Source: a virus
Length of the DNA stretch: 23,761 nucleotides
Reading direction: 5' to 3' (one strand)
Virus record (IMG/VR): IMGVR_UViG_3300036830_000011
Span: 1-23,761 of that record
Part shown: positions 5,128 through 23,598 of the stretch, piece after piece
How the letters are laid out: every line of letters begins with the position of its first letter
Numbering within the stretch: position 1 is the stretch's first letter
Program-made: the position numbers and the translations under genes
Notes under the pieces: model-generated
What the model saw: the letters and a program-made list of their open reading frames with translations, nothing else
Databases searched by the model: none
What the model was told of the DNA's origin: nothing

Positions 5128-6663
5128 TTATTGAACGTCAATCGACGCGAGTTGAATCTTCTGAACGCTGCCGCCGTCCGTGTACCAAAAGGTCATGGGC
5201 GGCGAGCCTCGCTGTCCGCGCGTCTGCGGAGAGGCCGGCAAAATTTGCAGGTAGTAGCCGACCGATGAGAGAACTCCATCAATCTTCACGCCGGCCGCGG
5301 TATTGACTTGAGCGGCTTGCGAAGCGCTCAGCGGCACGCCCGCTTGAATCGCACCGAAGTTCAGATACTTGTCGATGGGGTCTTGCGCAACGTTGTGCAA
5401 GCTCGCGGTGCCCTGATTGTTGTAGGGATTGCTCTTGACGCTTGCCAGATACGATAAAAACGCAAGCTGAAAATCAGCGTTCAAGAGAATTTGGTCGATG
5501 TACTCATCGAGCCAATTCCACGAGCCCGACACGCTGCCCGGCTGATAGATGGTGAACTCTTGATTCGCCGTCGCGTAGGTTCCGTAGAAATTGTACCCGT
5601 TGCCGATGAGATTGTCGGCGACGACCGCGCTCGTCACATCGGCTGTGAGACCCGCGCCGCTCTTATAGGCGTAGGTGATGCGGCCGTTCGTCTCATCGGT
5701 ATTGAGCGAGGCAGTCGTGCCGCAAATGAAGGCGCCCTTTTGGCCGGCTGTCTGATCCCATACAACGTGAACGCCGTTGTAGCCGGCGGCAGCGACAGCC
5801 GCGCCGAAGCTGCCGGCGGCCGGAAGTTCGGTGCTTGGCGTCAAATCGGAATCCCATGCGACATAAACAAAGCGTTCTTGACCGGCCGGCGATTGCGTGC
5901 TGACCCAATTCGCGAACTCAAGTTTGATCGTAGCCGGCTCGCCGCCCGCGTCGGGGTCCGTAGTGGTCATGAACGAGACCCAATTTTGCTGAGCGGCGAC
6001 GATGCCGTTCATAATGGCCGCGGGAACGCCCGCAGCGGCGCCCGGAGCCAAGATCGCGCCGGTAGCGGCCGTCAGCAAGAGTCCGGTAACGAGGCTGTCA
6101 GTCGTCGGATACGCGACCGTAGATGCGCCGCCCGTCGTGGTCGAGGTGATCACGAAGGCATCGCGCAAACTGTCGTAGCTGCACACCGCTGCCGTGGACG
6201 GAGTTCCGGCCGCAAGACCGGCAGTGATCAGCGCGGCAGCGTTCGTGAAGCTCGTCGCGGAAGCGAGATTGATTGCATCCGACACGTGGGAAACGCCATC
6301 GATGACGATAGTCACGGTTCCCGAGAGGGCTTGAAGCTGCGTCAAGGAAAGATTGACGACGCCGCCGCGGATATATCCGGGAATCGCCGCCGAATTGAAC
6401 TGCGCAAAATAGAGCTTACCGGGCAAAGACTGAGTGCCGATGTAGCCGCCGAAATAGAAGCCCGCGAGCACAGCTTGCGGAGAGACCGGGCCGTACCAAT
6501 CTTCGACCGAAGTCAAATCCGGGAAGCCTTTCACCGTGCCGACGGGAATCGAGGTATCGCCGCTCGTGTCCACGAAGACCGCGTTCGGGCTCAGCGGATT
6601 GCCGCCGGCACCTAGAACGCTCGGAATAGACGAAACCAATTGACTAGCGGGAATCGAGTTCAT
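5128..6663 (-). CDS. Tail sheath protein (DUF3383 family)
   Basis: Encodes 511 aa. The N-terminal domain has SVEDWYGPVSPQAVLAGFYF, followed by YFAQFNSAAIPGYIRGG. A later FVYVAWDSDL and a C-terminal ending in VQKIQLASIDVQ fit DUF3383-type contractile sheath proteins. The protein forms the outer contractile layer of the tail, which shows that the phage is a myovirus. The ATG overlaps the terminator stop as ATGA, and the tube gene follows at once. A beta-rich Ala/Thr stretch at about residues 107-212 (TVTIVIDGVSHVSDAINLAS and on) looks like the inserted domain typical of the family. No truncation was seen. Confidence 0.9.
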   Translation of the reverse strand: MNSIPASQLVSSIPSVLGAGGNPLSPNAVFVDTSGDTSIPVGTVKGFPDLTSVEDWYGPVSPQAVLAGFYFGGYIGTQSLPGKLYFAQFNSAAIPGYIRGGVVNLSLTQLQALSGTVTIVIDGVSHVSDAINLASATSFTNAAALITAGLAAGTPSTAAVCSYDSLRDAFVITSTTTGGASTVAYPTTDSLVTGLLLTAATGAILAPGAAAGVPAAIMNGIVAAQQNWVSFMTTTDPDAGGEPATIKLEFANWVSTQSPAGQERFVYVAWDSDLTPSTELPAAGSFGAAVAAAGYNGVHVVWDQTAGQKGAFICGTTASLNTDETNGRITYAYKSGAGLTADVTSAVVADNLIGNGYNFYGTYATANQEFTIYQPGSVSGSWNWLDEYIDQILLNADFQLAFLSYLASVKSNPYNNQGTASLHNVAQDPIDKYLNFGAIQAGVPLSASQAAQVNTAAGVKIDGVLSSVGYYLQILPASPQTRGQRGSPPMTFWYTDGGSVQKIQLASIDVQ

Positions 6664-11949: not shown

Positions 11950-11970
11950 GCTCGGCTTACTTGGCCGAGC
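11950..11970 (-). terminator. Hairpin after the scaffold gene, possible weak terminator or attenuator
   Basis: On the minus strand GCTCGGC-CAAGTAA-GCCGAGC makes a 7-bp GC-rich stem with a 7-base loop that contains the stop codon of the DUF2213 gene. CTCGTTTTAATTT follows, a poor U-tract. It could partly stop or pause transcription before the cement and capsid genes, or protect an mRNA end. It is not a strong canonical terminator. Confidence 0.35.
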
Positions 11971-13333
11971 TGAGAAAAATTGCGTCGACGTTGTACTCGG
12001 CCGGAGTCGCGTCGTAGATCGGGGCAGTGTTGCCCTTGCGAACGCGAATCTCAGCGGACACGAGCGCCGCCAGTGCCGAAGGATGCACATCCTTGTGCGC
12101 GACTTTCGCCTGATCCAAGGCGAACCGATACACAGCTTCGGCGGAATCCATTGCGACCGTGATCGGGCCGACGAGCGGCGCGACATCGGTCTTCGCTTGG
12201 GTCAGCGCATCGCGGGCGGCGATGGCTGCGTCGATGCGCTTCTGAGCGTCATCCGCAGTCAACAGCTTGCCCGACTTCAAGGCCGTGTCGATTGCGGCCG
12301 CAACGGTCGCGCCGTCATTGCCCTTGACTTTGCCGCCCTTCAAACCTTCCTCTTGCGAGGCGAGAGACGGATCGGTATCGCCGGCCTTGCCGCCGAGACC
12401 CCAATTGCCATCCTTCGCTTTGTCTTTTGCCTTGCGATCCGCGGCGCGCTTGTCGCGGGCAGACTTGCGGCCGTCGCGAGCCTTCGCGCGGTCGCCCTTC
12501 GCTACCTCGTCTTTCTCGGCGGCGTCCATCGCTTCCTCGCGAGCGTCCATCGCTTCCTCGCGAGAATCCATTGCGGATTCCGCATCGGTCTCGCCGTCTT
12601 TGGCTTTTTCCTCGAACGCTGCGTCGAGTGCGGTCTTCTGAGTATCGGTGAGACCCGTCATCACTGAGGCGACAACGGCGAGAATGTTCGGGAACTTGTA
12701 CATGTTCAATCCTGTAGGTAGAGCGTCATTCACAAAAACGTCGGGGCCGGCGCGACCTTCCTTCACTAGCGCGACGTGGTTTCCGACAATATCTCGCATT
12801 ACGCCGTCGTATGCAAGCCCTCCCGGCGTTACTCCGGGGGTCATGTCCGCTCGGTAGCGGTACGAGCAAGAGAGCTGAGCCGTCTTTTTCTCTAAGACGC
12901 GCGCTATAGAATCGGCCTTCCAAATCGCTAGAGATGCCCGTAAATACGGGTTCTCGAAGCGTACATCGCTTCCCACGGTGCCCGCGGTATATTCGAGCTT
13001 CGGGTCGTCGGCGTCGACGGCCGTATGAAGGTCGAGTAATTGCAAACGGGCGAAAGTCGGGGCGGCTTTTTCAAGTTCGACCGGATCGCGGTAGAGCCGA
13101 TAGACTTTATCGGGATCGAGGCCGAGCGCTTCAGCGTCGGGAATTTCTCGACCGTAGTACGGATTGACAGTCGCCTTCGAGATGGCGCAATTTTCCACAT
13201 GCAAGCGCCGGTCGGCGTCGAACGTGCGCATCGAGACTCGATCAAACGCAAAAAGCTCGCGCGCAAGCGTGGGCTTACGCGACGGCGCCGGAGCGCGGTC
13301 GAAGGCGAGCTTCAGTTCGGAGGCGAGGGACAT
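11957..13333 (-). CDS. DUF2213 prohead protease/scaffold protein
   Basis: Encodes 458 aa from ATG 13333-13331. An in-frame TTG at 13369 is possible, but neither start has a clear binding site. The N-terminal half carries the DUF2213 pattern: [87 protein letters not shown]. Residues from about 230 are a highly charged helical region with heptad-like EEAMDAR repeats and a Lys/Arg/Asp stretch, as expected of a scaffold. The family is thought to guide capsid assembly and be cleaved at maturation. It lies upstream of the cement and capsid genes. Confidence 0.85.
12522..12563 (-). repeat. 21-bp tandem repeat in the scaffold coiled-coil region
   Basis: Two identical 21-base units at 12522-12542 and 12543-12563 are followed by a third, degenerate unit. 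Each encodes the heptad EEAMDAR, giving an in-frame extension of a coiled coil. Expansion or contraction by whole heptads would keep the frame. Confidence 0.75.
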
Positions 13334-13372: not shown

Positions 13373-13927
13373 TTAGTCGTGGGTAGGATCGAGAGGCAAG
13401 CGTTCGGCGGCGAATTCGCTCATCCCGCGCGAGGGCGTTCCGTGAGGCATCCGCCCCGTATCGCCGAAGATTTCCTCGACTGTCTTCGCGGGCTGCGGCA
13501 GCCGCGCGCCCGGAGCGAGCGGAGCGCCGCCGTATTTTTCGTGTAGCTCTTGAGACCAAATCACCGCACGCCAAGCGAATTGACCGACCTCGGTCAGCAA
13601 TGCCTCGACCATCGCGCGACGCTCGGCATCGTCTTGAGCCGAAATCGGAATCTCGCGTCGTTCGAGAGCGGCTTCAAGGTCGGCAATATCTATCGAGTGC
13701 CGCACAACGCAATCGGGATGATCATTCGATTTGCCGCGCGCATGATGCAACGCTTCGCCGGGATTGTGCTTGTCGTTTCCTTCCTTCGATATTTTCGCCA
13801 TGCCGGCGAGCGCGGCCGGCGCGTATCGAATCACTCCGGTATAGAGCGGATAGTTTTTCCGAGCCGCTGAATCGGCCGGTAGAGTCGTGTTGATGATTTG
13901 CGATATCTCCAAGCTAAAACACACCAT
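13373..13927 (-). CDS. dATP/dGTP diphosphohydrolase-like protein (MazZ/DUF5664 type)
   Basis: Encodes 184 aa from ATG 13927-13925. A longer frame to 14017 has an arginine-rich extension and is less likely. Residues 18-78 show the pattern I associate with DUF5664 / dATP-dGTP diphosphohydrolase N-terminal proteins: ADSAARKNYPLYTGVIRYAP, ALAGMAKISKEGNDKHNPGE, LHHARGKSNDHPDCVVRH. A helix with EVGQFAWRAVIWSQELHEK follows. The characterised relative MazZ hydrolyses dGTP and dATP to monophosphates. The start overlaps the membrane protein gene by 97 bases without an evident ribosome binding site, so the exact N-terminus is unsure. The last 50 residues are Pro-rich and may be specific to this phage. 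Confidence 0.68.
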   Translation of the reverse strand: MVCFSLEISQIINTTLPADSAARKNYPLYTGVIRYAPAALAGMAKISKEGNDKHNPGEALHHARGKSNDHPDCVVRHSIDIADLEAALERREIPISAQDDAERRAMVEALLTEVGQFAWRAVIWSQELHEKYGGAPLAPGARLPQPAKTVEEIFGDTGRMPHGTPSRGMSEFAAERLPLDPTHD

Positions 13928-14160
13928 GCGAAATTGGCGCCCACGATGACGACGCCGCCCCAAAAGCTCAGCCATTGCCCGAGGTGCGGGTAATAGAAGC
14001 AATTCCAAAAACCCCAAGTCGTGAAGACGACCGTCGGAATCTTCGAGACGCCGCGCAACTTTTTGTCAATCAATAGCCGGCGTACATTGAGCCAATTCAC
14101 CGCGCCGCCGAAGAACTCGAACAGCGCGTTTACGAGGTCCGGGCCTTGTAGGTGAATCAT
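13831..14160 (-). CDS. Small two-helix membrane protein
   Basis: Encodes 109 aa from an ATG that overlaps the HD hydrolase stop (ATGA). An N-terminal amphipathic segment (LVNALFEFFGGAVNWLNVRR) is followed by two hydrophobic helices at about 41-57 (IPTVVFTTWGFWNCFYY) and 64-84 (LSFWGGVVIVGANFAWCVLAW), then a basic tail with several Arg/Lys. The pattern NVRRLLIDKKLRGVS...WGFWNCFYYPHLGQW recurs in phages, to my recollection, without an assigned function. It could be a holin-like or inner-membrane accessory protein. No lysis gene adjoins it, so I do not call it a holin. Confidence 0.65.
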   Translation of the reverse strand: MIHLQGPDLVNALFEFFGGAVNWLNVRRLLIDKKLRGVSKIPTVVFTTWGFWNCFYYPHLGQWLSFWGGVVIVGANFAWCVLAWRYRKSSTRLYRPIQRLGKTIRSIPE

Positions 14161-14816
14161 ATCGCGGGTTTGAGCGAAGATTGAATCGAGCGAAATCGCG
14201 CGATGAATTGGCGCCGCGCATACGACGGTGACAAACACTTCGGGCCGTACTTGCGCGAGTCGATGACCGGCTGAAGTCTCGCGCGGAAATCCTCCGCGGG
14301 CGTAAGCCAATCATCGGAGACGCCATGCGGCAACAGCTCGCGCGCTTCAAGAAACAGCGCGTACCAATCGGCGCGCTTCACGCCTTCGCTGATGGTGCCG
14401 GCGATGCCAAAATGCTCGCGGCACTTCGCCTCTAGGCGTTCTTCCATCTTGCGATAGTCAGGAATGAGAGCCTTCCACGGGCTCGCGATATCACTCACAT
14501 AAGCCTCGTGCGCGTCGTGCATGAGCCCCTCGAAGGCCGCATGTAAGGGCGGCTGAGAAAGAAAAAGGCCTTTTTCTCGGCTAGATACGACTTGGCAATC
14601 GGCCAAATCCTCGCACAAATGCGAGACCATGACGCAATGTTCGGCGACGGAATAAAAGTCGCGCGTGTGCCCCGTGTAGCGGCACTGCATCGAGGTAGCG
14701 TGTGCAATTTCCTCGATGTCGAACTCGGGACGCGACATATAGAATCGTCGGCCCTTCACGGTTTGAATGTATAAGTCTTTCTCTTTTTCGAGATATAAGT
14801 CAGCGGCTTGTTGCAT
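14157..14816 (-). CDS. HD-domain phosphohydrolase (deoxynucleotide hydrolase, YfbR/DatZ-like)
   Basis: Encodes 219 aa, with GGAGG eight bases before the ATG. The metal-binding HD set is intact: His60 in DFYSVAEHCVMVSH, His100-Asp101 in EGLMHDAHEAYVSDI, and Asp150 in GVKRADWYALFLEA. The FDIEEIAHATSMQCRYTGHT lead-in is common to phage HD hydrolases of the 5'-deoxynucleotidase type. Such enzymes remove phosphate from dNMPs or dNTPs. The DatZ enzymes of diaminopurine phages are HD-domain dATPases. Substrate cannot be read from this sequence. The gene lies in the non-structural island beside the DUF5664-like gene. Confidence 0.82.
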   Translation of the reverse strand: MQQAADLYLEKEKDLYIQTVKGRRFYMSRPEFDIEEIAHATSMQCRYTGHTRDFYSVAEHCVMVSHLCEDLADCQVVSSREKGLFLSQPPLHAAFEGLMHDAHEAYVSDIASPWKALIPDYRKMEERLEAKCREHFGIAGTISEGVKRADWYALFLEARELLPHGVSDDWLTPAEDFRARLQPVIDSRKYGPKCLSPSYARRQFIARFRSIQSSLKPAI

Positions 14817-14852
14817 GTGCGTGCGCCTCCGCGGCGTGTGATGAGAGTCGGA

Positions 14853-16340
14853 CTACCCTCGATATTTCCCGTCGATGTAACGAACGATTTGTCGTTTAGA
14901 ATCCCATTGCGTCAACACGTCCGCGTTCGTCCATCCGTTGAGGCCGTGATTGTATTCGAGGCGAAGGCGAGTCTTCGTGCCGGCGCCGTAGTTGCCTTCG
15001 TAAATATAGTCGCTGTGCGTATGGAACGTCACCGACTTGTTTCCCATGTGCGCGAAGGCTTTGCGCGATCCCTTCGCGCCATTGGCGCCGATGTCGCCGT
15101 GCAATCCGTGCTCGATGCCGCCGGGCGCGAATGATTCGTCGAGGTCGAGCAAGCGAATGTTTTTTTTCATCATCGACGATTCGTGACGGAACCAATAGTG
15201 CAGCGGATCGGGATATTCCGCGCCCTTGTCGGTGATCTTCGCGTTACGCCGCATATACAGCGCGGTCTCTAAGCCGAACTCACTGTTCGCATGGTCGATG
15301 CGCCAATCGAAATCACGCGCCATGAAACGACGTAGCATGTCGTTATGATTCGAGGCTTGCACGAGCCATTGAATTTTGGCGAAGTCGGCGGCGCGCTGAT
15401 TCGTCCATCCTATCGCGCGGCGTACCTCGGCTTTGATGTCATGGCGCCCGGCATCGAATTTCGCCGCACCGATGAACGGGTCGAGCTTGTGATGCGGATT
15501 CACCGCATAGCTGTCGAGCAAGTCGGGCAATACCACGGCCTCGGGCTGCAATCGCTCGATGAGTTCTTCGGTCGCGGCCCATACAACGGGGTCGATATAG
15601 TCGACGTGAATATCGCCGCAGCCGAGAGCCTTCGGGCGTGGCGCCTTCGAGCACTTGCCGTTCGGATGATACGTCAAGCCGAGAACGCCGTCGGTCGCGC
15701 TGTTATGCGTGGTCGAGTAGTGAAACTGCCGCACGTAGAATTTGTCGTCGTCGCTCATATCCACGAGCAACGCGGACAAACTGTGATGGAATTCGCCGAC
15801 CTTGCCGAGTTTCGTCAGCGTATAGTTCGGCATCGTGGCCGCGCCGGTCGTCGTCAAGAGCTTTCCCATCTTGCCCGAGGGAACCGGGACGATGGTCGAT
15901 TCGAGTTTCGTGTGCCCGTATATCGCGCTATTGGCGCCGCTGACGGCATCGAAGCTCGACAGCGGGCGAGCGGCCGTCGGCTGTGTCGGCACGTCCGCGA
16001 ATAGCGTCAGATTGTCATTGAATGGAAGTCGGCGGCTCCACATCACATGTTTGAATTCCGCGGCCCAATGCTCCGCGTTATTCTGTGATCCGGTCCATAC
16101 CGAGGTGGGGTTCTTGTAGCGGAGCGGAATCGCGAAGATTTCTCGCTTATCTCGCCGCGCCTTGTTCTTGATGATTTGCCAAAACTCCGCGTGAGCGGGG
16201 GTCGCGTTTTGAACTGCGAAGACGATTGCGCGTTTCCATCCGGCGGGTAGCTCACGGTGAAAATCTACCGTGATTTGCGACGCCTCCGCGAAGGGATTTG
16301 TCAGCTTGCGAAATTCCGCCAGTGTTTGAAAACGCGCCAT
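14853..16340 (-). CDS. T5 A1-like metallophosphoesterase (host-takeover protein)
   Basis: Encodes 495 aa. The start ATG lies just after the upstream stop and has AGG eight bases before it. Central motifs match the phage T5 A1 family as I remember it: LLTTTGAATMPNY then GKVGEFHHSLSALLVDM (residues 161-195), GDIHVDYIDP (242-251), LPDLLDSYAVNPHHK (271-285), and QASNHNDMLRRFM (328-340). The GD.H...D and NH(N)D motifs are those of metallophosphoesterases. In T5, A1 is needed for host DNA breakdown and completion of DNA entry. Activity here is inferred. It is unusual in a late structural operon. Confidence 0.75.
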   Translation of the reverse strand: MARFQTLAEFRKLTNPFAEASQITVDFHRELPAGWKRAIVFAVQNATPAHAEFWQIIKNKARRDKREIFAIPLRYKNPTSVWTGSQNNAEHWAAEFKHVMWSRRLPFNDNLTLFADVPTQPTAARPLSSFDAVSGANSAIYGHTKLESTIVPVPSGKMGKLLTTTGAATMPNYTLTKLGKVGEFHHSLSALLVDMSDDDKFYVRQFHYSTTHNSATDGVLGLTYHPNGKCSKAPRPKALGCGDIHVDYIDPVVWAATEELIERLQPEAVVLPDLLDSYAVNPHHKLDPFIGAAKFDAGRHDIKAEVRRAIGWTNQRAADFAKIQWLVQASNHNDMLRRFMARDFDWRIDHANSEFGLETALYMRRNAKITDKGAEYPDPLHYWFRHESSMMKKNIRLLDLDESFAPGGIEHGLHGDIGANGAKGSRKAFAHMGNKSVTFHTHSDYIYEGNYGAGTKTRLRLEYNHGLNGWTNADVLTQWDSKRQIVRYIDGKYRG

Positions 16341-16344
16341 CGTA

Positions 16345-16647
16345 CTAACCTCGGGCCTTAGCCGCGACCTTCACATCGGCGAACCATACGTTCTTTCCGT
16401 TGCCGCGTCCATCCATTTTCACGACGACGATGTGTTTCTCGAACTGTGCTCGGTACTTGCCGAGTAGGTTCGCACCGAGGCCGCAGCGAGCCGCGAAGTC
16501 GGCTTCGTACTCGGCTGATTCCTTGCCCTCGGCCAAGAGCGAGGCAAGGCCCGCTCGAATCTTCAAGGGAATTTTCACGTCGGGATTGTGCTCGGCTTGG
16601 AACGATGCAAGGTTCGTGAACGTGGGTTTGACTTTTGCTTTCGACAT
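16345..16647 (-). CDS. Small basic protein of unknown function
   Basis: Encodes 100 aa from ATG 16647-16645, which overlaps the stop of the proteasome-like gene (TAATG). The open frame extends to 16926, but that part lies inside the upstream gene and is low quality. The sequence FAARCGLGANLLGKYRAQFE at about 47-66 could form a helix-turn-helix. The C-terminal MDGRGNGKNVWFADVKVA is beta-like. It precedes the T5 A1-like gene by five bases. No family recognised; a DNA-binding partner of its neighbours is only a guess. Confidence 0.6.
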   Translation of the reverse strand: MSKAKVKPTFTNLASFQAEHNPDVKIPLKIRAGLASLLAEGKESAEYEADFAARCGLGANLLGKYRAQFEKHIVVVKMDGRGNGKNVWFADVKVAAKARG

Positions 16648-17117
16648 TACTTTTTCCTCGTGAGTGACATAGTAGTGATAGGGGTCGAGCTGAAGTGCTC
16701 TACCTTCGTAGCGATGAAACATGCGCGCTTGGCGTCCGCGCCCGCGTGCATCGCCCCGAGGGCGGCTTTGCAGCCGGAGCCAATCGACCAAAACTTTTCG
16801 AGCACACGTTCGGGACGGCAATACGCATCGGCCTCGAACAGCCCGTGTTTGTTGTAAATCAAAACCATGAAATCTGAATTCATGAGTGCGAAGACTTCCG
16901 GCACGTCTTTTCCGCTGCCGTACCAATCGAGGAACACGAGCGCGGGCGAAGTCTCGCCGGCTACGCCGATGATATGTTCTTCGGTGCGTTTGCCGACCTT
17001 GATAAATTTGCGATACATTTTTTCGCAGCGAAAGAATCGCGCGCCGCCGGATTCCGTCTCAAGTGTGCCGCGTGAATCCGCAGCCATCACGCCATCGCGG
17101 TAAACAATCGTCGTCAT
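16647..17117 (-). CDS. Proteasome/HslV-like Ntn-hydrolase peptidase
   Basis: Encodes 156 aa from ATG 17117-17115, with GAGGA upstream. The longer frame to 17192 adds a segment without family match. The N-terminus M-TTIVYRDGVMAADSRGT matches the beta-subunit pattern in which Met removal exposes a catalytic Thr. The Asp of MAADSR and a Lys in EKMYRKFIK occupy the positions of HslV Asp17 and Lys33. IGSGCKAALGAMHAGADAKRA matches the conserved C-terminal half. No ATPase partner is present in the window. It likely cleaves peptides, perhaps using a host unfoldase. Confidence 0.8.
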   Translation of the reverse strand: MTTIVYRDGVMAADSRGTLETESGGARFFRCEKMYRKFIKVGKRTEEHIIGVAGETSPALVFLDWYGSGKDVPEVFALMNSDFMVLIYNKHGLFEADAYCRPERVLEKFWSIGSGCKAALGAMHAGADAKRACFIATKVEHFSSTPITTMSLTRKK

Positions 17118-17119
17118 TT

Positions 17120-17929
17120 TTAATCCTCGAATCCGGGAATGATTGAGCGGGAAGTGCAACGGCAGTTTATAAGCTGACCGGGAAAAATCCATTCTTTTTC
17201 GTCGGGATCATACATGCCCTTCGATAAATCAAATTCCTTGCCATTCATCGCAACATGTGATGGGCGAGGTTCCTTGCCGCCGGCTGAGTGCTGCCATATC
17301 GCCTTTTTAATTCCGAGCTGTTGCCGGCGCGCGTTTTCAATCGTGGCCGTAGCCTTCGCGTTTTGATCGCGAGCGATGAGGGCGGCGCGCTTCACCGTCA
17401 CTTCGTAGTTTTTGTGCAGCTTACGCGACAGCGTTCCCATGTTGCCGCCGGCACTCACGCTCGACCATACGCTCGACTGAACATCCGTCAAATACTGTTG
17501 CGGAATCGACTTGATGAGGTTCACGTTCTCCGCGATAACCTTTCGATACGCTTCCATCGCGGGGCGGCCGGGCTTGAACGCCACGGTAAAGCCGGCCTTT
17601 TTGAAGGCGGCCTTCATCGAGGTTTCGGCATAGCGGAAGTTCTTCGCTACGAATTTGCGCGATAGGTCGAGCGACAAACCGTTGAACTTGAGCGTCCATT
17701 TCTTCGACCACGCCTTGAGCGTTTTATCGATGTTCGAGACGGGAGACTTCGCATCGGCAGCGATGAGCGTCGGCGGCGTTTCAAGTAGCGCGAGCCCGAG
17801 CTGAAGCGAGATATCGAGATGCGCTTCGCCGATCAGCGTTTCGAGCGCCTTCTGATACCAGATGCGAACGCCCGAGTTCGGCCAAGTCGGTTCGACGACG
17901 ATTCGCTTATTTGTTTTTGCGTCGATCAT
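17120..17929 (-). CDS. Head morphogenesis protein (Mu F/SPP1 gp7 family)
   Basis: Encodes 269 aa from ATG 17929-17927. The frame is open to an ATG at 18031, giving 303 aa, but that would overlap the 63-aa gene by 68 more bases, and relatives start close to the PNSGVRIWYQKALETLI segment. No good ribosome binding site marks either start. The C-terminal HSAGGKEPRPSHVAMNGKEF, WIFPGQLINCRC and SRSIIPGF are the diagnostic Mu F motif. LIKSIPQQYLTDVQSSV and AALIARDQNAKATATIENAR are typical of the middle part. It is a minor head protein that binds the portal vertex. Confidence 0.88.
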   Translation of the reverse strand: MIDAKTNKRIVVEPTWPNSGVRIWYQKALETLIGEAHLDISLQLGLALLETPPTLIAADAKSPVSNIDKTLKAWSKKWTLKFNGLSLDLSRKFVAKNFRYAETSMKAAFKKAGFTVAFKPGRPAMEAYRKVIAENVNLIKSIPQQYLTDVQSSVWSSVSAGGNMGTLSRKLHKNYEVTVKRAALIARDQNAKATATIENARRQQLGIKKAIWQHSAGGKEPRPSHVAMNGKEFDLSKGMYDPDEKEWIFPGQLINCRCTSRSIIPGFED

Positions 17930-18098
17930 GTTGCGCGGCGAGATATCCGGCGCGCCATGCTTCGGCAAGGCGCATCCGTTTAGTTGAAACATTTTCGGTA
18001 GGACCGGCATCGGGAAAACCGGGAATGTCATTCCCTACTAGGTGCATTTGCGCCCATAGATACCCGCGATGTCGAAGCGTTGTGCGACGTTTCTTCAT
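17907..18098 (-). CDS. Small phage protein with GY-AA motif
   Basis: Encodes 63 aa from ATG 18098-18096, with GAGTG upstream; an in-frame ATG at 18134 is the alternative. It ends KRMRLAEAWRAGYLAAQHDR, a motif I have seen at the end of many small phage proteins and which resembles the R.GY.AG helix of ribosome modulation factor. It overlaps the start of the head morphogenesis gene. The function is unknown. Confidence 0.55.
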   Translation of the reverse strand: MKKRRTTLRHRGYLWAQMHLVGNDIPGFPDAGPTENVSTKRMRLAEAWRAGYLAAQHDRRKNK

Positions 18099-18108
18099 GG
18101 CTATCACT

Positions 18109-18453
18109 CTATGTGATACGTGCCAAGTATGCAAGTATGTTTAAAATTCCCTCGAAATCGTCGCCTAGCATCCCCAAACCCGTGTTACATCGACGGCAAA
18201 GCCATCCGCGGAATTTGCCGGTTTTGTGATCGTGGTCATTATGCAATGTAACTCCTAGCGCTCCGCAGCATTCACAGCGCGTGGGGCACGGGCGCGTAGG
18301 CTTCGGCACGCCGTCATATCGCCATTGCGCTTCCCGATTTTTCCAAGGATTTTTTACGCGCCATCGTTTCAGCTTCGCCGCAATTTTCGATTTATGCTTT
18401 TTATAATAGGCGCGATTTACGGCGTTTTTCGTATCCTTATCTTTACTCGGCAT
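18109..18453 (-). CDS. Endonuclease VII-type HNH endonuclease
   Basis: Encodes 114 aa from ATG 18453-18451, overlapping the portal stop by 11 bases; the longer frame to 18483 lies in the portal gene. The N-terminal half is very basic. The catalytic and zinc motif is complete: CECCG (C60, C63), DHDH (73-76), GKFRGWLCRRCN (C86, C89), GLGMLGD. This family includes T4 endonuclease VII and many free-standing homing-type HNH genes. It sits between portal and head morphogenesis genes, an insertion place that suggests a mobile selfish gene. It is a paralogue of the broken gene at 20566-21010. Confidence 0.85.
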   Translation of the reverse strand: MPSKDKDTKNAVNRAYYKKHKSKIAAKLKRWRVKNPWKNREAQWRYDGVPKPTRPCPTRCECCGALGVTLHNDHDHKTGKFRGWLCRRCNTGLGMLGDDFEGILNILAYLARIT

Positions 18454-20083
18454 CTGAGCCGCCCGGAGGTGCCGGCGGCGCATAAGGCTGTCCCGTTTCG
18501 GGGTCTATCGTGTTGATGTCGGGCTGAGGCTCCGGCGCGTCGCCTTCGAGATGAGTTAGGCCGCTGTCGGGGTCCGTGCGCAACGCTTCGCGGCCCTCGT
18601 CGGCATCGATTACGCCGGCCGTGATGAGGCCCGTAATCATTTCCGTATTCGCTTTGCGCGTGTCCGCGACTTCCTTTTGCGTGGTTTCCACGAGGGGCAC
18701 GAATTCGTAGTCGAGGTCTTCGTCGATGGCGCCGAACTCGTTCAACTGAATGAGGTCGAATATCTTGTCGAGGCCCGGTTCGACGACGGTCTCTTGCTCG
18801 CTGCCGACGAACTCGTGAAAAACCGTTATCTCGCCTTCGCTCGAAGCGTTGAGGCCGCTCGGCGTGATGCCCGTCAGCTTGACAAGGGGCACATGCGAGG
18901 GCGCCGCCATATGCTCTTGTGCTTGCGCCTGTAGCTCCGAAAGGCCGGAGAGCGGCACCGCGATTTGCTCCATTTCTTCGCTGTTCTTGTCGAGCAACGT
19001 CAAGCCCTGATTATCGCGCGTGAGCGTGAACAGCTTCGCGCGATTCAAAATGCCCGTACCGTCGACGGATTTTCCCGCGAGCACCGTCTGAAGATTCGAC
19101 TTCAAAATGAGGTTCGAGAAATTCGAGATGATTTTGTTCACGTTGTCGACAGTCTTCAGCCATCGAAGAACGTAGGGCTCCATGAGCTGCGTCAAGCTGA
19201 TGCCGCCGAAATTGTATGCCGGCTTCAAGAGGTCTGGCATCGGACGAGAGATGACGGTAATCAATCGAGTGTGATGCACGCGCTTGCCGAGAATGAACCA
19301 CGCATTCGGGCTATAGAAATCCTGAGCCGTGGCGTCTTGCGAATTGTACGTGAGCGGGCTCGTCCAAATCGGTTCGATGACTTTAAAGCCTACGAGCTTG
19401 CCCTTGCCTACCGTCTTGTCGGTGATTTCGAGCGGCTGTGCTTTCACGACATCGTTATCGCTGCCCTCGATGTTGATGTAAATCTGAGCGCGGCCCATGA
19501 ACATATCGAGTTCGAGGGTCTTGCGCCAAATCTGGCGAACGTCAAATTTTTTGAACGCTGCCTCTAGCTTTTTGAATTTGTCGGCCGCCTTCGGGTCTTT
19601 TGAGCGCGAGACGAACTTAATCCATTTGCGCGTCATTTCCTTAGCAATGGTTTCGCTCGGTGCGCGGTACTCGGAGCGCTGAGACAGCTCCGACAAATAG
19701 GCGTAGCCGGGAAATCCGAGGCCGCAATTCTGCGTCTGTTGCCAAGCGAAGAAATTCGAGCCGCCGGGAACCATGTTCGCATTGTCCATCGCGAGATATG
19801 GCTTCTGCCCGTGGGGCATGGCGTTTTGCCTCGCGATGATGGCCGCGCTCGGGATCACGCCCGGAGGCGGCGAGTAGGGCCGCACGGGACGCCGTATAAC
19901 GACCGCTGAGCCGAGCTGAGCGAGTAGGCCATCGCTTACCTGAAGCGTCGTGCCCTCGGGCGCTACGAGCGTTGCCGGCGCCGCAACGGGCGTCGAGGCG
20001 GCTTCCTTGTATCGCGTGACCGCACGAGCTTTCTTGCCGTCTCGCTTAAGCTGCGCGGATTTCTTTGCGGTTCGCTTTTTCAT
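18443..20083 (-). CDS. Portal protein (DUF1073 type)
   Basis: Encodes 546 aa. After a basic, low-complexity first 70 residues comes the portal core: GFPGYAYLSELSQRSEYRAP then SETIAKEMTRKWIKF, LELDMFMGRAQIYINI, VIEPIWTSPLTYNSQDATAQ, VHHTRLITVISRPMPDLLKP, and TGITPSGLNASSEGEI. This is the DUF1073 portal pattern, also annotated as Acb1-like in databases. Here the C-terminus is a Pro/Asp-rich tail of about 30 residues and no separate Acb1 phosphodiesterase domain is seen. The protein forms the dodecameric DNA gate. The start has only a weak ribosome binding site (GAG). Confidence 0.9.
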   Translation of the reverse strand: MKKRTAKKSAQLKRDGKKARAVTRYKEAASTPVAAPATLVAPEGTTLQVSDGLLAQLGSAVVIRRPVRPYSPPPGVIPSAAIIARQNAMPHGQKPYLAMDNANMVPGGSNFFAWQQTQNCGLGFPGYAYLSELSQRSEYRAPSETIAKEMTRKWIKFVSRSKDPKAADKFKKLEAAFKKFDVRQIWRKTLELDMFMGRAQIYINIEGSDNDVVKAQPLEITDKTVGKGKLVGFKVIEPIWTSPLTYNSQDATAQDFYSPNAWFILGKRVHHTRLITVISRPMPDLLKPAYNFGGISLTQLMEPYVLRWLKTVDNVNKIISNFSNLILKSNLQTVLAGKSVDGTGILNRAKLFTLTRDNQGLTLLDKNSEEMEQIAVPLSGLSELQAQAQEHMAAPSHVPLVKLTGITPSGLNASSEGEITVFHEFVGSEQETVVEPGLDKIFDLIQLNEFGAIDEDLDYEFVPLVETTQKEVADTRKANTEMITGLITAGVIDADEGREALRTDPDSGLTHLEGDAPEPQPDINTIDPETGQPYAPPAPPGGSDAE

Positions 20084-20349: not shown

Positions 20350-20582
20350 TTGGTTCTCGTCAGTGCGTCGAGTTCGGGACCGGGAAAAGTCAAGATGCGA
20401 GACATCTCGTATTGAAGCCGCTCGGCATCGAGGGCGGCGCGTTCCATCGCGAGACAGTCGCGCGCCTTGCGCTGTTCCGAATAGGCAATCGCTGCGGCTT
20501 GTTTCGGGTCTTTACCGGCGTCGATTTCGCGCCGAATGTTTTCCGAACGGGCCTCTTTCGAGCTGCTATTTATGAGGGGCAT
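20346..20582 (-). CDS. Small conserved phage protein (S-SKEA..N-RREI type)
   Basis: Encodes 78 aa, with AGGA about 10 bases before the ATG. The N-terminus [19 protein letters not shown] followed by [19 protein letters not shown] is a recurring small phage protein pattern (compare ...SSKKAFSENVR.E...GKP.KQAVAIAY...). It is helical and charged. The start lies inside the end of the broken HNH gene. The function is unknown. Confidence 0.7.
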
Positions 20583-21010
20583 TGTGAATCAATCCTAAAT
20601 AGGCAATAGGCGACACATTAGCAGTTTCGCACAAATATACAAATGCTAAAGCCGCGCCCGCGATTGTATCCCCTAGAAGCCCAAGTGCTTGATTACATTT
20701 GCTGCAAAGCCATCCGCGAAATTCTCCCGTGCGGTGATCGTGGTCTAAGCAAAGAGCTTTCCCCGTGCGTTTGGCCCCGCAACACTCACAATACGCCGGC
20801 TCCGGGCGCGTAGGCTCGGGCGCTCCGCTCGATTTGCGCTTATAGGCCCGACGTTGCGCGGCCGTTCTTGCTTTCTCATAGCCGCGAACCTTTTCAGGGT
20901 TTTTCGCGCGCCATCTCGGCCGTCGACGCTTTCGCCCGCTCGGGATGCTTATCGCGGTATCGACGAGCCGAAAGATTGTTCGCCGAACGATTGCTCGGGA
21001 TTTGAACCAT
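20566..21010 (-). pseudogene. Frameshifted endonuclease VII-type HNH gene
   Basis: The 3' part encodes the intact motif set YCECCGAKR, LCLDHDHRTGEFRGWLC, SKCNQALGLLGD, but its own frame has no start outside the terminase gene. A second frame starts at ATG 21010-21008 and reads MVQIPSNRSANNLSARRYRD then KHPERAKAST, a typical N-terminus for this family, before a TGA at 20896-20894. Removing one base in the A5C3 tract just before that stop would join the halves as ...AEMAREKPEKVRGYEK. So a single-base insertion (mutation or sequencing error) breaks the gene. The 5' end overlaps the terminase by 62 bases. It is a paralogue of the gene at 18109-18453. Confidence 0.72.
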
Positions 21011-22688
21011 GACCAAACATCTCCAAAATTGCCGCACTGATTTGCATCGGAGGCCGGGCGTAGGGGAAAAGCATCATGACGCAATCGCCGTTATTTGGCG
21101 AAGCTACATCGTCCGGGGTCTTGTCTATCATCATTTTGCCCGATTTGCTCCATGTCCAAACGGGTTGAGATAATTCGTCCGCAGTCTTCGTAAGCTCCGG
21201 CATATCGGGAGAAATCGAAAGAATGTCGCTCGGATCAAATTCAAATGGACGGCCTTCGCGTTTTGCCATCACAGCTTGCCATGTCAGATAGGCGCGCTGC
21301 CGCAGTGCCCACCACGATTGAGCCTTATAGTTCTCGAAAAAATCTTTGTTCAAACGGTCGGTGCCGGGACAAAAGTTCTCGGGGTCTTGCACGGCTGCGG
21401 AGCCGCGAAACATGCTCGCGCTGATCAAAGGGCGATTTTGCTCCGCTCGATCCGATTCGATTCGTTCCGCATCACTACGCACTCCCGCGCCCATGCCGTC
21501 ACCGTCGTAATCGAAGATCGAAACTTTGCGCCCTTCGCACTCACCATAAACTTTGAGCACGCTCTTGCCGATGGTAGAGTTCGATCCGCTCCAAGATTCC
21601 ATGTGCTGAAGTTCGACGCCGTATGCAAATCCGAGACAGTTTTTATCTTTGCCCTGATCCGCAACGTCGTATGCCGCGCGACGTTCGCCCGTGACTTCGA
21701 TCCCGAGAAATGATGCCGCGCCGATACAAGCCTGTACCCATTCTTTCGGAATGATGATGCCCTCGGCCGATGCCAAGAAATCGCATTCATACTGTTCATT
21801 CCAGATAATCGGATCAGTATCGCGTTTTTTCTTCGCGAACCATTCGTGCAAAATAAATTGTCCGTGCTCGTCGCGGAAGCATTTGCGCGGATCATCTCGA
21901 TAGTGGAAATCGAATCGCGTCATCTTGCCGCCGCGCGCGTGCTCCGCAAAAACGTTCGACAATCCCTTAACCGTAGACATCTCGACGCGACACTCGGAGG
22001 TCGCGATTAGATTCGCTTCGACGAGCTTCGAGCGCTCAATCGCCGCAAATTCATCCACGATGAACAGCGTCGTTCGGTCGCCTACGCCGATGTTATCGCC
22101 CGAGCGGCCCATGATGGCCGACTCATTCCAAGGAAACATGAGCTTGCGTTGCCCGCTGTGCAATCGATTATTTTCCGACCATGTAGTTTTAAATTCCGGC
22201 GGAAGGTACTTCATGAACATGCGACCTTTGCCGAACAAAGCTCCGGGGTCGCCCGCGTTGTCGACTTGTTCCTCTTTATGCGAGCCGAAGCCTACGGCCG
22301 CATTTGGATAGAATAGGCACAGCCAGCACGCATAGGACATCGCGAGCCATGAGGCGCCGCAATCGCGCGACTTCACAAGCACGCCGCTATCTTTGGTACG
22401 GCGCCGCTCATCAAGCCATTGTAGATATTCGAGCTGTTTGTCGAACAGTAGGAACGGCATCACGACGGGAACGGCTGTGCCGGCGTTATTGGGGTTCACC
22501 GTCACGCCCCAATCGTTCACGAAATCGGCGACGTTCTCGGCGTAATAGGCTTTAGACTCCGCCAAGAGCACGGGGTCGCCCCGCAACTTAGCTAACGCAC
22601 GAATGCGCATATCCCAAAACGGGGAATAATCGGGTGCAAGCCAATCGAAATCCTCGACCGGGCGCCCGAACATATGAACTGTAGCCAT
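20949..22688 (-). CDS. terL: Terminase large subunit
   Basis: Encodes 579 aa. The ATPase domain shows a Walker A-like VLVKSRDCGASW (about residues 103-114) and a Walker B TLFIVDEFAA (about 209-218). The nuclease half carries YDVADQGKDKN and VSIFDYDGDGMGAG, consistent with acidic metal-binding residues. It drives ATP-powered DNA packaging through the portal and cuts the concatemer. The start overlaps the methyltransferase stop (ATGA). Residues 27-53 lie in the 81-base segment repeated at the right end of the window. The last 20 residues are repetitive (EQSFGEQSFGS) and overlap the broken HNH gene. Confidence 0.92.
   Translation of the reverse strand: MATVHMFGRPVEDFDWLAPDYSPFWDMRIRALAKLRGDPVLLAESKAYYAENVADFVNDWGVTVNPNNAGTAVPVVMPFLLFDKQLEYLQWLDERRRTKDSGVLVKSRDCGASWLAMSYACWLCLFYPNAAVGFGSHKEEQVDNAGDPGALFGKGRMFMKYLPPEFKTTWSENNRLHSGQRKLMFPWNESAIMGRSGDNIGVGDRTTLFIVDEFAAIERSKLVEANLIATSECRVEMSTVKGLSNVFAEHARGGKMTRFDFHYRDDPRKCFRDEHGQFILHEWFAKKKRDTDPIIWNEQYECDFLASAEGIIIPKEWVQACIGAASFLGIEVTGERRAAYDVADQGKDKNCLGFAYGVELQHMESWSGSNSTIGKSVLKVYGECEGRKVSIFDYDGDGMGAGVRSDAERIESDRAEQNRPLISASMFRGSAAVQDPENFCPGTDRLNKDFFENYKAQSWWALRQRAYLTWQAVMAKREGRPFEFDPSDILSISPDMPELTKTADELSQPVWTWSKSGKMMIDKTPDDVASPNNGDCVMMLFPYARPPMQISAAILEMFGHGSNPEQSFGEQSFGSSIPR
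22529..22609. repeat. 81-bp direct repeat, copy 1 (inside terminase)
   Basis: Identical, base for base, to the last 81 bases of the window (23681-23761). The bases just before the two copies differ (g at 22528, t at 23680). This copy is in frame within the intact terminase gene and is taken as the original. Confidence 0.95.
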
Positions 22689-23548
22689 CAGCCGAATATG
22701 TCGTTATAGGCGCCTATGAATTCTTCCGCGACTTGAGGCACGATTGCATTGCCGTAGCCCCGCAATAATCCCACGCGATAGGGTATCCCATGAGCCAGCG
22801 GGAATGTGCCGGGTTCAATAGGCCGCGTTTTTCCGTCGGAGCAAGGGATAAATTCGCTTTGCCAGCATCCGCCGATAGCGCCCCGTTCGCTTGACTTGGG
22901 CCGCCATTGCTTCCATCCGATGCTCTCGGCGACGGCCAATTTGTAAGCATCTGCACTTGATCTATTAATTTGTATTTGTGCGGGGCTCGATCCGATATCG
23001 AACCGTGTTTCAGGCCGCCCTTTGAATCGCTCGCTAAGGGCGTGCGCCATGAAATAGAGTCGCTGTCGGACATGCGGTGCGCCGACGCCCGCTGCGCACA
23101 AATCAGCCGCCCCAAAGGCGTAGTCCGCTCTTTCCATGTCAGTTGAAACAATATCGAGCCAAGCGAGGCCATCCTTACTTGCAACCTGTTCGCCAAACAC
23201 AACTGAAGGTCGGCAGAAGCTAATGAGCCGATAGAATTCCGGCCAAAGGTGACGGGCATCGTCGGTGCCACCACGTTTTCCCGCAACGCTAAACGGTTGG
23301 CAAGGGCAGCTACCTGTCCATACGGGTCTATCGTCGGGCCACTGAGCAAGGCGGAGAGCGTAGGACCATCCGCCGATACCGGCGAAGAAATGGCATTGCG
23401 TATATCCCGCAAGATCGGAAGATCGTACTTCCGAGATACTGCGGCTGTCGACATCACCATCAGCGATAAGTCGAGACTTAATGAGTTCACGAAGCCACGC
23501 CGCCGCCCGGGGATCAAATTCATTATAGTAAGCTCGTGTTGCGTTCAT
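22688..23548 (-). CDS. DNA (cytosine-5-)methyltransferase
   Basis: Encodes 286 aa from ATG 23548-23546; an in-frame ATG at 23575 is possible but relatives begin near NATRAYYNEFDPRAAAWLRE. C5-MTase motifs appear in order: motif I HFFAGIGGWSYALRL (about 53-67), motif IV GSCPCQPFSVAG with catalytic Cys83, motif VI-like FGEQV (118-122), motif VIII-like APHVRQRLYF, and motifs IX-X with EPGTFPLAHGIPYRVG and RGYGNAIVPQVAEEF. It methylates cytosine in a target that cannot be read here, probably to protect phage DNA from restriction. It overlaps the terminase by ATGA, so both are likely translated together. A second long frame runs through it (see findings). Confidence 0.9.
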   Translation of the reverse strand: MNATRAYYNEFDPRAAAWLRELIKSRLIADGDVDSRSISEVRSSDLAGYTQCHFFAGIGGWSYALRLAQWPDDRPVWTGSCPCQPFSVAGKRGGTDDARHLWPEFYRLISFCRPSVVFGEQVASKDGLAWLDIVSTDMERADYAFGAADLCAAGVGAPHVRQRLYFMAHALSERFKGRPETRFDIGSSPAQIQINRSSADAYKLAVAESIGWKQWRPKSSERGAIGGCWQSEFIPCSDGKTRPIEPGTFPLAHGIPYRVGLLRGYGNAIVPQVAEEFIGAYNDIFG

Positions 23549-23570
23549 TATCCCAAAGTATGACGGATAT

Positions 23571-23598
23571 CTCATAATAGTTCAAGAGCCTCCGTCAA
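23571..23598 (-). promoter_or_regulatory. Candidate sigma70-like promoter for the minus-strand operon
   Basis: Reading the minus strand, TTGACG (23598-23593) and TATGAG (23576-23571) are 16 bases apart, which would start transcription just upstream of the ATG at 23548. The -35 box is good and the -10 box is weak. It lies in the only divergent intergenic gap of the window (23549-23631), which is where an operon promoter is expected. Confidence 0.35.

Follow-up and report, generated by a model that had tools for sequence, protein, structure and literature searches.

A modular gene cassette in the head operon of a virus with a predicted role in the demolition of host DNA and nucleotides

The 23,761 nucleotides (nt) of IMG/VR virus record IMGVR_UViG_3300036830_000011 analyzed here (the window, to whose whole length all positions refer) carry an island of six genes on the minus strand (17117-13373), which lies between the genes of a Mu F minor head protein and a DUF2213 protein. 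On balance, this island appears to be a modular cassette for demolition of host DNA and nucleotides, placed in the late head operon and containing a protein of 100 amino acids (aa), named p100 here, a metallophosphoesterase resembling A1 of phage T5, and predicted hydrolases of deoxynucleotides. It has long been an open question how T5 A1 destroys host DNA: this protein was described as a putative DNase (PMC7232257) and as required for host DNA degradation, with Dmp further degrading host nucleotides (PMC13250531), and no nuclease activity has been reported for it (PMC8541194). The cassette gives a testable answer, namely that A1-type enzymes may depend on a part that binds DNA, and here this would be the separate small protein p100. 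That an exonuclease from a different family can stand in for A1 beside the same p100, always accompanied by hydrolases of deoxynucleoside triphosphates (dNTPs) and monophosphates (dNMPs), further suggests that phages may generally cut host DNA and then render the products unusable. A paper describing this gene combination was not found in the open-access literature searched, nor was an earlier description of p100.

The gene of p100 (16345..16647, minus strand) was overlooked in an earlier sequence-only reading of this DNA, and its product turned out to be the constant partner of the putative nuclease. A metallophosphoesterase gene follows it directly in 32 of 32 loci, a count that includes L009, where the A1 frame overlaps, and L079, where the gene runs off the contig. 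The partner is A1 in the window group, among others, and phrog_284 phage exonuclease, a metallophosphoesterase of a family different from A1 (phrog_1745) and not present in the window, in L157, L081, L089, L092 and others; in these four and in L128 it takes the A1 slot beside the same p100 and DUF5664. Both p100 and its partner share the N-terminal motif TLxDFRxxHDPxxI (E<0.05 in 24 of the 32 partners), which was detected in none of 71 non-partners, not once in a reversed control and in none of the other gene families at these loci. Searches of Pfam, PHROG and NCBIfam assigned p100 to no family, and tblastn against cultured phages gave no match. Its AlphaFold2 model is a winged helix (predicted local distance difference test, pLDDT, 83.6), with which nearly all best Foldseek matches were winged-helix regulators, each individually weak. 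Many A1 proteins without p100 start with a zinc ribbon or a helix-turn-helix (HTH)-like extension, whereas those with p100 do not: among 47 A1 clusters at 70% identity, the N-terminal zinc-ribbon cysteine pattern occurred in 0 of 11 with p100 vs 13 of 36 without (Fisher P=0.02), and after HTH-like extensions had been added by eye, a matter of judgement, the counts were 0 of 11 vs 31 of 34. A p100-less relative of the phrog_284 enzyme (Manatee Spring phage) has a fused HTH-like N-terminus in its place. The simplest reading of these patterns is that p100 would be a detached DNA-binding subunit, which pairs with the nuclease via the N-terminal motif. As a general capsid-targeting tag the shared motif was not supported, being confined to p100 and its partner.

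The metallophosphoesterase itself (495 aa, 14853..16340, minus strand) aligns over its full length to phrog_1745 (residues 34-493 to positions 85-540 of 542, E=1.4e-104) and displays the motifs GDIH (242-245), D273/D276, SNH (330-332), HG (414) and HTH (440-442), as well as the N-terminal motif in common with p100. Its metal-site residues D243, H245, D273, N331, H332, H414, H440 and H442 are invariant in 32 A1 relatives and also in T5. An AlphaFold2 model (pLDDT 89.6) found metallophosphoesterases as its best two Foldseek matches, weak ones with E-values of 0.01 and 0.07. The A1 assignment of the sequence-only reading stands, as does that of the HD-domain hydrolase (219 aa, 14157..14816, minus strand), a predicted YfbR-like 5'-deoxynucleotidase matching phrog_318 (E=6.7e-54) and PDB 2gz4 (E=6.1e-13); its YfbR-like Pfam match reached 21.7 bits, below the cut-off of 25.9. 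Metal ligands H60, H100-D101 and D150 are found in its motifs VAEH, MHDAHE and RAD. The last gene of the island (13373..13927, minus strand) encodes a DUF5664-like protein (dGTP_diPhyd_N; phrog_27780, E=3.2e-28; PF18909, E=1.8e-4, below the cut-off), a predicted dATP/dGTP diphosphohydrolase. An orthologue in L005 exceeds the 27-bit cut-off of PF18909 with 31.8 bits, and the DUF5664 half of the former label DUF5664/MazZ-like probably holds; the MazZ half does not, DUF5664 being a family distinct from MazZ (DUF550) (PMC12884076). The purified DUF5664 protein of phage Wayne hydrolyses dATP, dUTP and dGTP (PMC12884076).

The association of these enzymes with a metallophosphoesterase is strong. Many of the relatives came from alignment scans for Mu F and DUF2213 and were not selected via A1; most records compared are metagenomic fragments, and their clusters are not fully independent. 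In this set, DUF5664 was found near Mu F in 13 of 18 clusters with a metallophosphoesterase vs 0 of 70 without (P=7e-12). Because the profiles used were seeded from the cassette, an independent Pfam control was run, in which PF18909 matched once in 46 whole records without a metallophosphoesterase, about 27 kb from Mu F. In unrelated A1 phages, PF18909 lay less than 2.5 kb from A1 in 8 of the 10 lineages having both, and among records >30 kb with A1 and PF18909 this distance was kept in 6 of 8, which none of 20,000 random placements reached. HD stands directly after A1 in 6 of the 7 records with HD. Other nucleotide enzymes fill the same slots and are, judged from their families, functional analogues: DUF1937 (deoxyribosyltransferase type) and DUF6378 in L231, a predicted NTP pyrophosphohydrolase in L014 and PRA-PH in Flavobacterium phage elemoF. 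For DUF6378 proteins after A1 (L078 9745-10254, L231 8956-9246) the PHROGs family label phosphofructokinase is doubtful. In L105 a nucleotide-kinase-like gene (5968-6570), of opposite metabolic direction, occupies the usual DUF5664 slot.

The island had been proposed to be a co-transferred module, and comparison of its borders supports a genuine insertion: of the 146 loci in which DUF2213 follows Mu F, 103 are empty sites with a gap of <400 nt between the two genes, whereas cassette carriers have 2.5 to 4 kb there. The arrangement is kept, with changes, in the close relatives L002, L003, L004, L005 and L008 and hence is not due to chance; L005 and L008 possess HslV, p100, A1, HD and DUF5664. 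A fixed six-gene unit, as the proposal implied, was not recovered. DUF4406 stands in place of HD in L002, the phrog_284 exonuclease in place of A1 in L157 and DUF6378 in place of DUF5664 in L078, HslV is missing in L003, and the presence of HslV and the membrane gene varies among relatives. Judged by gene content, the cassette is modular, with a core of p100, metallophosphoesterase and DUF5664 around which other parts are swapped. In L081, L089, L100, L101, L102 and L128 it sits instead on the portal side of Mu F, between these two genes, and therefore one of two neighbouring positions is occupied. The same kind of cassette, with parts swapped, recurs in many related and some unrelated phages, and its genes for the nuclease and the nucleotide hydrolases are found together much more often than chance would allow.

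From families, motifs, gene order, co-occurrence, slot swaps and p100 pairing we infer activities, a p100-A1 contact, target DNA and timing as follows. The winged-helix p100 would bind DNA, pair with the metallophosphoesterase via the common N-terminal motif and so replace the DNA-binding part fused in other A1 proteins, and the metallophosphoesterase, A1 in the window, would cut host or foreign DNA. DUF5664 would split dATP, dGTP and dUTP into dNMPs and pyrophosphate; HD would dephosphorylate the dNMPs from the nuclease and DUF5664 steps to nucleosides, so that, as we propose, the host cannot reuse them. In L002 and L231 the HD slot is held by a protein of nucleoside-deoxyribosyltransferase type; one deoxyribosyltransferase-family enzyme, DmtZ, hydrolyses dAMP (PMC12884076). 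The HslV-like peptidase would remove proteins. Several points weigh against this scheme. Where T5 has HGH, the window A1 reads HGD and so lacks the second His, Pfam HTH matches on the fused A1 N-termini stay below cut-off, and the window DUF5664 match is weak (PF18909, 16 bits vs a cut-off of 27), the assignment resting on orthologues. HslV is without a clear place in the demolition scheme, and in the set gathered independently of A1 its link to the metallophosphoesterase lacked significance (P=0.20). Finally, T5 acts pre-early and the cassette belongs to a late head operon, where host destruction would seem late.

Comparison with T5 also shows how far the likeness goes. In both, an A1-family protein is accompanied by a separate DNA-binding protein encoded upstream (A2 in T5, p100 by prediction in the window) and by a dNMP phosphatase nearby (dmp in T5, HD by prediction in the window). 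However, the T5 set is pre-early and the window cassette part of a head operon, and T5 gave no DUF5664 or HslV matches. Homology of p100 to A2 was rejected (hhalign of the p100 profile vs T5/Klebsiella A2, probability 0.3), as was that of HD to Dmp, which is a HAD protein with the motif DLDGT and no phrog_318 match. Neither A2 and p100 nor Dmp and HD are homologues, so T5 is an analogue sharing only A1. Another known case is the Rhizobium podophage RHEph09 (Cuernavacavirus), in which A1, HD and DUF5664 are adjacent in the same order (gp18-gp20) and not described as a system in the papers found; but these genes lie among the replication genes of a T7-like phage, the record has no HslV match and p100 is absent from 17 kb around A1. 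Its gp20 (L006 9951-10361), annotated as an endolysin inhibiting RNA polymerase, is a DUF5664 protein (PF18909, 4.6e-25) and hence misannotated.

Among other explanations, the metallophosphoesterase might serve the phage's own DNA, by SbcD-like trimming of ends or repair in replication or packaging, while the nucleotide enzymes balance the pools of late replication. The neighbourhood of terminase, portal and Mu F would suit this, as would the exchangeable phrog_284 exonuclease, which also resembles a DNA repair exonuclease family, and L025, where p100-A1-HD lies in a region with RecA-like and primase-like genes. However, the associated enzymes would destroy dNTPs and dNMPs and thereby starve replication, and the cassette is missing from most relatives that have the same head genes, which makes this role unlikely. 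We hold it to be quite unlikely that A1 and p100 form a switch of gene expression, A1 acting on host RNA polymerase (a role proposed for T5 and KASIA) with p100 as regulator and the nucleotide enzymes as passengers. Although T5 A2 is a putative transcriptional regulator (PMC7232257) and p100 resembles winged-helix regulators, p100 has no homology to A2 and pairs equally with the other nuclease family, phrog_284, and the metal-site motifs of A1 are all invariant. It is at least as doubtful that unrelated extra genes, which do not work together, were gathered at one permissive site of the late operon. Each of the genes for HslV, HD and the membrane protein is missing or replaced in some relatives, but the strong co-occurrence and conserved order extend to unrelated phages and to other places in the genome.

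A further variant seems improbable: p100 and the metallophosphoesterase, as a two-part DNA-targeted nuclease with an exchangeable cutter, would be made late, packed into the capsid next to Mu F and injected along with the genome, attacking host DNA and nucleotides on entry like the T5 pre-early genes. Two facts speak against capsid loading: only p100 and its partner carry the N-terminal motif, and p100-A1 pairs are present outside head modules as well. Very improbable is the 2-aminoadenine (Z) genome pathway with HD and DUF5664 as DatZ- and MazZ-like enzymes. Z phages do use DatZ and DUF5664/MazZ-type hydrolases (PMC12884076), but the PurZ family was found in 0 of 19 records, the complete RHEph09 genome included (control positive in 14 of 14 genomes), and HD fits phrog_318 far better than the dATP triphosphohydrolase family phrog_7076 (1.2e-5). 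The window being a fragment, absence of PurZ from it is in itself no proof. The known Z-genome enzymes (DatZ, MazZ, DUF5664, DmtZ) share with the cassette the DUF5664 family and consumption of dNTPs or dNMPs (PMC12884076) but differ in that no PurZ was found with the cassette, whose nucleotide enzymes are paired with a predicted nuclease.

Within the demolition cassette, the HslV-like peptidase and the membrane protein are optional parts. The former (156 aa, 16647..17117, minus strand, ATGACG start; phrog_1040, E=1.1e-27) is an Ntn-hydrolase beginning with MTTI, in which T2, T3, D14, S15, R16 and K33 are invariant in three relatives; a Thr nucleophile after Met, Asp14 and Lys33 are present as in an Ntn site. 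No ATPase that could be an HslU partner was recognised among the listed neighbouring open reading frames (ORFs), in which no search aimed at HslU was made. HslV adjoins A1 or p100 in the window group, and in several distant lineages it is found close to A1, in either order; it stands beside A1 also in L011, L014, L016, L018, L019 and L022. In L020 (9824-11830) A1 and HslV read as one frame of 669 aa, which was set aside as evidence of a link because it arises via a 17-nt deletion vs the near-identical L016 and may be a natural fusion or an assembly error. An SPFH/Band_7 (stomatin-like) gene lies directly upstream of p100-A1, at the place of HslV in the window, in L013 (9152-9685) and L093 (7082-7690). 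The membrane protein (109 aa, 13831..14160, minus strand) obtained no accepted family in Pfam and PHROG searches, and a Kyte-Doolittle scan showed one clear and one weak hydrophobic segment, so that the two helices formerly ascribed to it are reduced to a single clear one.

As for layout, the six-gene chain between Mu F and DUF2213 was confirmed, all six ORFs lying nearly end to end on the minus strand. The left border is the Mu F gene (17120..18031, minus strand; PF04233, E=9.6e-14, phrog_324), whose stop is 2 nt from the HslV-like start. HslV-like and p100 genes overlap in TAATG, gaps of 4 nt and 36 nt separate p100 from A1 and A1 from HD, HD and the membrane gene overlap in ATGA, and the latter overlaps the DUF5664-like gene, whose start codon is ambiguous (ATG 13927, or near 13897 by homology). 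After 39 nt follows the likely start (13333, by homology to L002) of the right border gene DUF2213 (11957..13333, minus strand; PF09979, E=9.8e-46, phrog_2229, 6e-113), a head maturation protease/scaffold, labelled head maturation protease in PHROGs. Promoter and terminator scans of the island were at or near chance and gave no confident signal marking it, and its GC content did not clearly differ from the flanks; the gene overlaps fit co-expression with the head genes. PADLOC models of anti-phage defence matched none of the six island proteins, and NCBIfam yielded nothing useful for them.

The portal gene is flanked by two related HNH genes of endonuclease-VII-like type (18109-18483 and 20566-21084, minus strand), which are probably homing endonucleases; one of them overlaps the end of the portal gene. 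A C5 cytosine methyltransferase gene (22688-23575, minus strand) adjoins the terminase gene, with a similar gene just before Mu F in L157, and its product could protect phage DNA from the cassette nuclease.
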